DNA from: a virus
Length of the DNA: 21,759 bases
Virus record (IMG/VR): IMGVR_UViG_3300025324_000007
Coordinates: 1 to 21,759 of that record
Direction: 5' to 3' (one strand)
Shown piece by piece: positions 2,668 to 14,404 of the stretch (positions are counted from its first letter, which is position 1; every line of letters begins with the position of its first letter). The notes beneath the pieces were generated by a model. It did no database searches. It had not been told where the DNA came from and saw only the letters and a program-made list of their open reading frames with translations. The translations under genes were made by a program, and so were the position numbers.

Positions 2668-2771
2668 TTACTCCGTGACACAGTGTTCAGCAAAAGGTTG
2701 AACAGCCACATGCAGAGTAAAACAAGAACGGTCATCAAAATCCAAACTGCAACTTTATATTTGTTGTTTGA
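2664..2771 (-). CDS. Tiny single-pass membrane protein (35 aa)
   Basis: This short frame reads MSNKYK, then a continuous hydrophobic helix (VAVWILMTVLVLLCMWLFN, residues 7-25), then a polar end (TVSRSK). Its TGA stop overlaps the ATG of the next gene in the ATGA arrangement used all over this phage, which argues that it is real. The ribosome site is weak (TTTTTGAGTTTGA). Its upstream edge abuts the T9 run at the end of the candidate RNA. A small toxin-like, holin-like or membrane-sensor role is possible; none can be shown. Confidence 0.55.
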   Translation of the reverse strand, partial: SNNKYKVAVWILMTVLVLLCMWLFNLLLNTVSRSK

Positions 2772-2779
2772 CATTCAAA

Positions 2780-3493
2780 CTCAAAAAAAAATTCGTGCGC
2801 CCCTATATATTAATATTTAATCTTTATATTTCTATATTCTTATTCTCTATATCTTTCTATATATCAATTGGCAAAGCTCTGCCCTACGGTCAGGAAATGA
2901 ACTTCTTGGACAGGGTGGTAATTTATCCTTCATTCATTCACTTTTCGTCAGGGGCAGTGTCTTGCTTTTAGCAGTCTACTGTGTAGCAAAAATCTCGAAC
3001 TAGGTTTTGAAGCTTGTTTTCGGCGTTAGGTTTCATCCATGCCAATATAGTTTCATCAGAAGTTTCGGGAGTGTTTCAACTCTTGCGCCGCGTGTTCCTT
3101 TATCAGCTCACTTCTGCCTGCCAACAGGTTATTTATTCCTGCTGCGGACATCTCTCAACCTAGATTGCCTTTCAATCTGCTCCCTGTGAGTGATGGTGGG
3201 TTTTCGCATTGCCCACAACTGTCAGTGTCATACGTTTCTCGCTACTTCTGTTCCAGCCGTTAGGTTCAGAAGTGTTCGTTGGTCTACTCTCGAATATTTG
3301 CTTAGTGAAACTTCGTCTCTCTAACTGTCACATCCTCTTTCACTAGCATCTCTGCCGCTACTTCAGATTACGTTTTTTGGGTTTACAGTTCCAGCATTTA
3401 TTCGATTGTTAGTGTGCAACGGGATGCCAGTATTCTACCTACATCCTAAGTCTAAGCCCGCGAATTGATGTTATCGCCCATAACTTTTGACTT
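2780..3493 (-). ncRNA. Candidate large structured phage non-coding RNA (~700 nt)
   Basis: About 0.9 kb (2772-3696) holds no convincing ORF on either strand, although coding is dense elsewhere. On the minus strand an extended -10 promoter motif precedes it and a run of nine T's (2788-2780) ends it. It contains many local perfect stems: 3345-3338 with 3310-3303 (8 bp), 3273-3267 with 3250-3244 (7 bp), 3178-3173 with 3167-3162 (6 bp), 3446-3442 with 3426-3422 (5 bp), and 2957-2952 with 2884-2879 (6 bp) enclosing 2934-2929 with 2901-2896 (6 bp). Several loops are A-rich. Large ornate RNAs of this size (GOLLD, ROOL) are known from phages; I cannot show that this is one of them. The 3' boundary is uncertain because no GC-rich hairpin precedes the T-run and the last 80 bases are very AT-rich. 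Confidence 0.5.
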
Positions 3494-3499
3494 ACCACT

Positions 3500-3508
3500 A
3501 TTATATCA
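3500..3508 (-). promoter_or_regulatory. Extended -10 promoter motif ahead of the candidate RNA
   Basis: The minus strand reads TGATATAAT: a perfect TATAAT (3505-3500) with the upstream TG of an extended -10 element. No good -35 box lies 16-18 bases upstream, which extended -10 promoters can tolerate. Transcription would start near 3493, just before the first predicted stems. Confidence 0.6.
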
Positions 3509-3591
3509 CGTTCTCATGAAAAATTCATCTTATTCTCATACTAATATCTATCCCCCGAAGGTACTAAGCGGATAGTCAACATATTAAACGC

Positions 3592-3623
3592 AAAAACCGT
3601 CCACTGCGAATATGAACGGTTTT
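3592..3623 (-). terminator. Hairpin with T-run, probable terminator
   Basis: AAAACCGT (3623-3616) pairs with ACGGTTTT (3600-3593) around a 15-base loop. On the minus strand the right arm continues as TTTTT and then GC. It lies about 70 bases past the stop of the 77-aa gene and about 85 bases before the next promoter motif, where a terminator would be useful. The T's are partly inside the stem, so strength is uncertain. A bidirectional terminator is possible. Confidence 0.5.
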
Positions 3624-3639
3624 GCCTAGGCTAGAAACG

Positions 3640-3662
3640 GAAGATTATGGATGATAATCTTC
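3640..3662. repeat. Perfect 9-bp inverted repeat (stem-loop)
   Basis: GAAGATTAT (3640-3648) and ATAATCTTC (3654-3662) are perfect complements separated by five bases. It lies between the 77-aa gene and the hairpin at 3592-3623. As RNA it would be a stable stem-loop; as DNA it could be an operator. A TGGTATACT extended -10 motif at 3677-3685 sits just upstream on the minus strand. Confidence 0.6.
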
Positions 3663-3696
3663 AAGACACTGGATATAGTATACCATAGATATTCGT

Positions 3697-4003: not shown

Positions 4004-4981
4004 CTATAAATTGTCCACAGGGCTTGCTAAATCGTGGGAGGCTTTCAAATCAGTTTGTGTTTGAGCCAGATAGCGTCTAAGAATTTGAATATCGGCGTGA
4101 CCCATCAAGCCTTGCAGAGAGAAGATGTCAGCACCATTCCTAAGCATTTGCAAACAGAACCATCGCCTGAAAGCATGAACGGATGGGACAGGGACACTCG
4201 CCTTTTCTGCTCTCCGACGCATTATCATTTTCAAGCCTCTGTATCCAAGCCTTTCTCCCTCGTCATTCACAAACAGGGCAGGGGAGTGGTCACGGCGCAT
4301 TTTCAGGTACATTCTGAGAGATTTGCGAGATGTAGAACCTAAATACACAGAACGTGCCTTGTTGCCCTTCCCATGCAATATCTTGATTTCACCTGTGATT
4401 GGATTTAGGTCTGCCCCGTTGATTTGAAGCAGCTCATTGGCTCGACATCCTGTGTCCAGAAGCACATACAAAATAGACTTGTCCCTTCTGCCTAAAAAGT
4501 TCGTACCACAAACACCTATCATGGCTTGAACATCGTCTATGTCGGCAGGAGCAAGTATCTGCGAGCTTTGCTTTGGAGGTTTTATTTTGTTGATCGGGTT
4601 GGGATAGTTTGGCTCCGTTTCATTCCAGTACCAACGTAGAAAAGCCTTCACAGAACGGAAATAAGTATGGATGCCTCCTGCATTGTGTCCTGTGCTTTCC
4701 AGATAAATCAAAAATTCCCGTAGGAACGATGGGGTTATTTCTGAAATCTTTTTCAGAGATTGGGCATCACAGTAGTTTGTGAACTTTTCTAGCTTCTCTT
4801 TATAAAACCCCACTGTTCTCTTGCTTAGATTTTGAGCCTGTCTATCTTTCAGGAAACCATCAATCCAAACTGCTACATAATCTTCAGTAGTCCATTGGTC
4901 TAAAGTAATTGGGGAAGTGGATTTCACTATAAAAAGTTGATAGTCCGTGACTTTATTATACATTAAAAGGTTCGCTCCCAC
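4004..4981 (-). CDS. int: Tyrosine recombinase / phage integrase
   Basis: This 325-residue protein has an N-terminal core-binding (SAM-like) domain at about 33-120 and a C-terminal catalytic domain at about 140-312. The full catalytic set is visible: R180 (TGCRANELL), the beta-hairpin lysine region (GKGNKAR), H269 and R272 (HAFRR), H295 (LMGH) and the nucleophile Y304 (RRYL). Enzymes of this family join phage attP to a host attB or resolve DNA multimers. The likely start is GTG 4981, with GGGGA six bases ahead; ATG 4963 (seventh codon) is an alternative with GGGAG upstream. It follows the portal gene by 60 bases and precedes a small helical protein. No attP core could be identified. Confidence 0.95.
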   Translation of the reverse strand: MGANLLMYNKVTDYQLFIVKSTSPITLDQWTTEDYVAVWIDGFLKDRQAQNLSKRTVGFYKEKLEKFTNYCDAQSLKKISEITPSFLREFLIYLESTGHNAGGIHTYFRSVKAFLRWYWNETEPNYPNPINKIKPPKQSSQILAPADIDDVQAMIGVCGTNFLGRRDKSILYVLLDTGCRANELLQINGADLNPITGEIKILHGKGNKARSVYLGSTSRKSLRMYLKMRRDHSPALFVNDEGERLGYRGLKMIMRRRAEKASVPVPSVHAFRRWFCLQMLRNGADIFSLQGLMGHADIQILRRYLAQTQTDLKASHDLASPVDNL

Positions 4982-13655: not shown

Positions 13656-14382
13656 TAGTTACCTTTCGCCCTCGCTTGCATCTCTAGCAGTTTTGCTCCA
13701 AAGGCTTTATCTGCTTCGGCTTGCTGTTCAATAGCTTTTGGCTTTGACGCTGTGTCATCTAAGTAGTGAGGCAGAAAATCTTTTAACTTCATCAAATGAG
13801 TTTCTTTAATCATCCTGCCACTCATGTTTGAGATGGTCTGTGCAAGCAGGGCTGTTCGTGCGTCTGCTCTCTCCTGCGGGAATGGGTAGACTTCGTAGTA
13901 GGCTCTCCAATACTCAATCTCACTAGCAGGCAGTTCCATGATTTCATAGAGCCACTTACCCTTTGCTTCGGCTAACTGTCCGTAGAAGATGTACTCAGGT
14001 CGTTTGGGAGGTTCTTGTTAGCCCCCATGCCTGCCATCTCCATTGCTTTATCGGCCACAAGTTGCAACTGAGAAATCGAGCGATTAGCAAACAACTCTGC
14101 TTCATCTTTGGATACAAAATAGGGAGAGCCGTCAACATTACAAGCCGTTTTATATACAAGGTCAGTCATCAGTTCAAGACCTTGAATATCACTAATTTCA
14201 CCATCAACGGTTTCACTTTCCATCTGCTTGATAAGCTCTCTATATTCCAAAAGAGCCTTACCACCTAACTCACGAACATAGAAACCTACCCCTGTGCCAT
14301 CAAGCGGAAGGAACTCCATCCTGGGCAGGAGAAGTTCCTTCTTGCTGATGACAACAGGAGTGATTGATTTACGTTTAGCCAT
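13655..14382 (-). CDS. Tail assembly chaperone G-T fusion made by -1 frameshift
   Basis: Ribosomes that slip back one base at CCCAAAC (14008-14002) leave the G frame after residue 127 and continue in the T frame to 13655, giving about 242 residues. The T frame is open upstream to a stop near the slip site. It encodes sensible protein through the junction (RPEYIFYGQLAEAKGKWLYE) before the apparent ATG at 13939, and that ATG has no ribosome site. So T is not an independent gene. The T part has the family pattern EIEYWRAYYEVYPFPQERAD. As in phage lambda, G and G-T coat the tape measure while the tube assembles and are not in the virion. Confidence 0.88.
13972..14382 (-). CDS. Tail assembly chaperone G
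   Basis: This 136-residue protein is the unshifted product. It lies between the tail-tube gene and the tape measure, the fixed position of chaperone G. It starts MAKRKSITPVVISKKELLLP and has the pattern of the family: an N-terminal strand region, then a helical middle (EYRELIKQMESE) and a Ser/Thr-rich end. A strong ribosome site (GGAGG) lies five bases ahead of ATG 14382. Near its 3' end it carries a canonical slippery heptamer that yields the longer G-T product. It binds tail-tube subunits and the tape measure during assembly. Confidence 0.88.
   Translation of the reverse strand: MAKRKSITPVVISKKELLLPRMEFLPLDGTGVGFYVRELGGKALLEYRELIKQMESETVDGEISDIQGLELMTDLVYKTACNVDGSPYFVSKDEAELFANRSISQLQLVADKAMEMAGMGANKNLPNDLSTSSTDS
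14002..14008 (-). promoter_or_regulatory. Slippery heptamer for programmed -1 frameshift
   Basis: In the G frame the bases read C CCA AAC, a canonical X XXY YYZ site. Slippage to CCC AAA opens the T frame. It lies ten codons before the G stop. No strong hairpin or pseudoknot directly downstream was found by eye. Confidence 0.88.
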
Positions 14383-14404
14383 TTAGTCCTCCGTTCAGGC
14401 TAAC

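Follow-up and report, generated by a model that had tools for sequence, protein, structure and literature searches.

The IMG/VR record IMGVR_UViG_3300025324_000007 (21,759 bp with a 99-bp direct terminal repeat), which we analyzed over its full length as our window, encodes a small tailed phage. Its recognized genes all lie on the minus strand and comprise a phrog_38 terminase large subunit (TerL), a portal, a phrog_3990 major head protein, a tape measure protein, a tyrosine integrase and an HNH endonuclease; no tRNA genes were found in the 21,759-nt window. Searches for relatives of the phage via TerL, portal, major capsid, integrase and a membrane protein yielded distant ones or none. The TerL relatives in IMG/VR had identities of mostly 30–46% and none was confirmed in a separate collection of genome contigs, and exact-peptide searches of IMG/VR with the portal and the major capsid returned no relative. 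By these comparisons the phage is an orphan in the collections searched, and a 21.7-kb tailed phage with a terminal repeat, an integrase and head and tail genes possibly represents a new lineage.

Between the listed ORFs of 67 aa (2667–2464) and 86 aa (3957–3697) the genome contains an empty gap of 1029 bp (2668–3696); the next-longest gaps between genes measure 277 and 166 bp. Even when a 36-aa ORF at 2774–2664(−) is counted, which takes up about 110 bp and leaves a gene-free length of about 920 bp, this is the largest gene-free region of the genome, as the first-pass annotation had stated. The longest minus-strand ORF in 2775–3508 has 31 aa, a length equalled or exceeded in 90% of dinucleotide shuffles, and the longest plus-strand ORF, with 60 aa, is likewise unexceptional compared to shuffles. 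Six-frame translations of the stretch had no family match in PHROG at E 1, which speaks against a decayed protein gene, and by all tests applied the stretch is noncoding. Its core (2870–3494) has a G+C content of 44.5%, compared to 36–38% in the adjacent non-coding stretches, and an A content on the minus strand of 35%, compared to 29% in genes. GOLLD and ROOL are large phage RNAs that form RNA-only cages, and a real ROOL (pMP118, true strand) contains 33% A. The base composition of the core fits a structured RNA read from the minus strand.

The sequence elements flanking the stretch are those of a transcription unit. An extended −10 element (TGATATAAT) at 3508–3500(−) is the sole TGnTATAAT on either strand of the window, where shuffles lead one to expect about 0.34 per strand; the minus strand of the window has three copies of the hexamer TATAAT, at 4960, 3505 and 2385. 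The −35 box of this putative promoter is weak and was missed by a two-hexamer scan. Transcription would be expected to start at about 3493, which coincides within 1–2 nt with the beginning of the first predicted helix (3494–3447). At the far end, a run of nine T at 2791–2783(−), a possible 3′ end or terminator, is the sole run of at least eight T on that strand of the window, with runs of at least nine T expected 0.29 times per strand in shuffles. Promoter and T9 run had both been pointed out in the first-pass annotation, and both are borne out. No local GC-rich hairpin precedes the T9 run and a consensus scan calls no minus-strand terminator there; because of this missing hairpin, termination at the run would need a long-range closing helix. 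Upstream of the promoter, an inverted repeat at 3619–3597(−), with arms that are 91% complementary (CCGTTC ... GGACGG) and followed by T5, resembles an intrinsic terminator, which escaped the consensus scan owing to a loop of more than 8 nt. This terminator-like hairpin would close the upstream unit of the integrase and the 86-aa ORF, and the region therefore has the anatomy of a separate transcript of about 710 nt, whose predicted ends lie at 3493 and 2783(−) and which contains no ORF longer than 31 aa. Given the absence of an ORF, the promoter of its own, the upstream terminator and the T9 run at the far end, the stretch is likely to be a noncoding transcription unit that is read from this promoter.

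The position of the T9 run relative to the genes that follow also allows a reading in cis. The 36-aa ORF (2774–2664(−)), which is transmembrane-like, has its ATG 8 nt past the run, its stop and the start of the 67-aa ORF (2667–2464) overlap, and no clear promoter lies between the run and these two genes, neither of which has a family match. Since base pairing in the closing helix of the predicted 3′ domain extends to the very edge of the U-run, the RNA might be a long leader of the two genes, in which the 3′ domain and T9 act as an attenuator gating read-through into them. We nevertheless consider this distinctly unlikely: with 710 nt the leader would be very long, the partners of the terminator stem would lie 150–200 nt apart and no local hairpin is present, and the first ORF is preceded by no ribosome site better than a weak GAG.

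The predicted fold is moderately better than that of shuffled sequences. The minimum free energy (MFE) of the whole length gave z-scores of −2.44 and −2.56 in two runs, with only one of 200 shuffles as good in the latter, and the antisense strand of the whole stretch scored −2.15. The minus strand has 75 base pairs with P > 0.9, compared to 46 in the antisense, and a lower entropy; its pair confidence and entropy are within the upper tenth of the shuffles. Nested long-range helices (TCAAAA/TTTTGA, AGTTCG/CGAATT, GCCCCT/AGGGGC) are predicted with pair probabilities of 0.95–0.97, so that the long-range helix enclosing another, which the first-pass annotation had described, is present in the prediction; however, 14 of 120 shuffles have at least as many confident long-range pairs. 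The many perfect stems with A-rich loops, also cited there, are at chance level, as we observed seven perfect Watson-Crick stems of at least 5 bp compared to 7.2 in shuffles, and an A content in loops of 55% compared to 53.5%.

Along the molecule the folding signal is uneven, with z-scores that are biased for the three folded domains because these were chosen from the fold itself. The predicted 5′ domain (3494–3422(−)) consists of a helix TAAGTC/GACTTA (3494–3447) abutting a hairpin GGATGTAGGTA/TACTGGCATCC (3446–3422) (P 0.91–0.96; biased z −3.39, 0 of 400 shuffles as good). It is followed by a domain at 3421–3277(−), closed by CGTTG/CAACG and with TCGAATA/TATTCGA within (P 0.93–0.99; biased z −2.90, 2 of 400), by a middle part at 3276–3011(−) that folds no better than shuffles (z −0.37, 142 of 400), and by a 3′ domain at 3010–2781(−), closed by long-range helices that run to the U-run (P 0.95–0.97; biased z −3.11, 3 of 400). 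Windows of 120 nt were unremarkable (mean z −0.58 compared to −0.23).

Control sequences limit what these energies can tell. The true ROOL strand of pMP118 scores only z −1.20, and two coding tiles of the same phage, at position 0 and at 13680, score −2.35 and −2.94 (0 of 40 shuffles for the latter). Folding energy thus cannot settle the case for or against an ornate RNA, and after these controls we dropped the MFE z-score as a proof of structure. A fold moderately better than shuffles, obtained from one orphan sequence, suggests that the stretch encodes a structured RNA. Apart from this, the coding stretch 13680–14400(−) stands out in itself by folding much better than shuffled sequence.

Local folding near shuffled or coding levels, together with hairpins and A-rich loops at such levels, would also be compatible with a locus that holds no RNA gene at all, but a DNA element near the integrase, such as an attachment site or a replication origin, or what is left, by chance, of genes that were lost. 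The stretch does lie two genes downstream of the tyrosine integrase, and searches found no homologue of it. We regard this reading as unlikely, though deserving some weight. A search for iterons as the mark of a replication origin found none, and the stretch has no repeat array, just AT-rich simple repeats; a tRNA-like attachment core is likewise missing. A remnant of lost genes is at odds with six frames in which there is no trace of any phage protein family, and a DNA element has no need of a unique extended promoter and a U-run placed in the right order and on the right strand.

For the noncoding RNA, we asked whether it belongs to a described family. GOLLD and ROOL are often encoded near tRNA genes, and ROOL forms a homo-oligomeric RNA nanocage. 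A cmscan of the window and of 2700–3620 against all families of Rfam 15 (E ≤ 10) produced chance matches alone, among them SNORD41, which matched the candidate RNA region on the opposite strand at E 8.4. OLE, HEARO, raiA and the group I and II introns had no covariance model match (Rfam 15, E ≤ 10). Direct searches with the ROOL model (RF03087, gathering score 99.1 bits) gave no match at E ≤ 10 in the stretch, whereas the same search does find the pMP118 ROOL (543 nt) at 130.4 bits; the GOLLD model (RF02032, gathering score 150 bits) gave no match at E ≤ 10 and found no control genome above the cut-off either. Membership in GOLLD or ROOL, which the first-pass annotation had raised, is therefore not supported by the covariance models. 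Size, phage origin and A/G-rich composition would suit a divergent member of one of these or of another described large RNA family, but we consider this very improbable in view of the absent matches and of the lack of adjoining tRNA genes, even if the proximity to tRNA genes is a tendency of GOLLD and ROOL and not a strict part of their definition.

Searches for homologues outside the described families were equally negative. We compared the stretch by blastn to phages (up to E 10) and plasmids and found no relative, and DNA pattern scans of IMG/VR yielded no genuine one. Covariance models, each built from a single sequence for the 5′ or the 3′ domain, had no match among 50 related records, a search for which no positive control is possible. 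One candidate was a 26-nt match with 88% identity in a terminase relative from IMG/VR (IMGVR_UViG_3300044623_001551). We took it as chance rather than homology because the site is a gap of about 240 nt that looks tRNA-like on the other strand, and because the other matches in a follow-up pattern scan were to a coding stretch and to another copy of that contig region. The gap, at 1356–1540 of that record, separates the terminase from an HNH gene and contains tRNA-like stems; the tRNA family model makes no call within it and recognizes a tRNA further on, at 2280–2351. Two further patterns were rejected as chance. The matches to GAACCTAACGGCTGG extend to 26 nt inside an apparently conserved protein frame (..EPNGWNRS..), which we take to resemble a terminase motif, and the similarity ends at once on both sides, while GAGAGTAGACCAACG matches a conserved stretch whose flanks show no similarity. 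The RNA of about 700 nt proposed in the first-pass annotation is well supported by its anatomy as a probable noncoding unit; its structured nature is suggested by the fold, but the hairpins cited for it do not exceed chance and the collections searched yielded no homologue.

The stretch is best classed as an orphan candidate among the large noncoding RNAs of phages, a known kind. ROOL is borne by phages and prophages, about 540–660 nt long, untranslated, A-rich and without an assigned function (PMC12286853). The candidate is also phage-borne, untranslated, A-rich and of similar size, yet it has no sequence or covariance match to ROOL and does not lie beside tRNA genes. GOLLD, which is phage-borne as well and of similar or larger size, is induced during lysis (PMC12286853); the candidate differs in having no match to it and no tRNA inside or beside it. 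In Staphylococcus phage K, two large lncRNAs of an unnamed family, lnc001 and lnc002, were seen by RNA-seq, and the more highly read of them has its own early promoter (PMC9241854). These lie beside tRNA genes and come with expression data; the candidate, predicted from sequence, has no significant similarity to the phage K lncRNAs (best E 0.13) or to the ROOL sequence.

In the reading that we prefer, RNA polymerase would start at the extended −10 element at 3508–3500(−), just past the terminator of the unit of the integrase and the 86-aa ORF, and transcribe about 710 nt of untranslated RNA down to the U-run (2791–2783). This RNA would fold into a compact 5′ half of three abutting domains, with its first helix within 1–2 nt of the transcript start, and into a 3′ domain whose closing helix runs into the U-run. 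By analogy with what has been proposed for other large phage RNAs, it would most probably act in trans, as a structured and untranslated molecule, in infection or lysogeny. We give an even chance to the stretch encoding such an independently transcribed, structured, trans-acting untranslated RNA outside the described families. More tentatively, it may represent a hitherto undescribed family of large, structured RNAs in phages that has no sequence relationship to GOLLD, ROOL or OLE; its carrier would be a temperate siphovirus-like phage of 21.7 kb, and the RNA would have a promoter of its own and end in a U-run. If this were so, the occurrence of an unrelated large RNA in a very small phage would make such RNAs a recurrent invention, and the phage would offer a small genetic system in which to test what large phage RNAs do. 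At present its value is that of one orphan sequence, a marked target for future relatives or RNA-seq data.

A second, smaller candidate RNA unit is located nearby at about 2407–2208(−), with a putative transcript at about 2380–2208(−). Its promoter, TTGACT-16-TATAAT at 2407–2380(−), is near-consensus (11 of 12 positions) and is followed by about 120 nt without an ORF, by a strong intrinsic terminator (CCGTCAAGAGTT..AACTTTTGACGG) at 2260–2214(−) and by T6. This unit (2407–2208(−)) has no match in Rfam and weak, scattered matches alone in phages, and its predicted fold has a z-score of −4.43 (0 of 200 shuffles as good), which is mostly due to the terminator.
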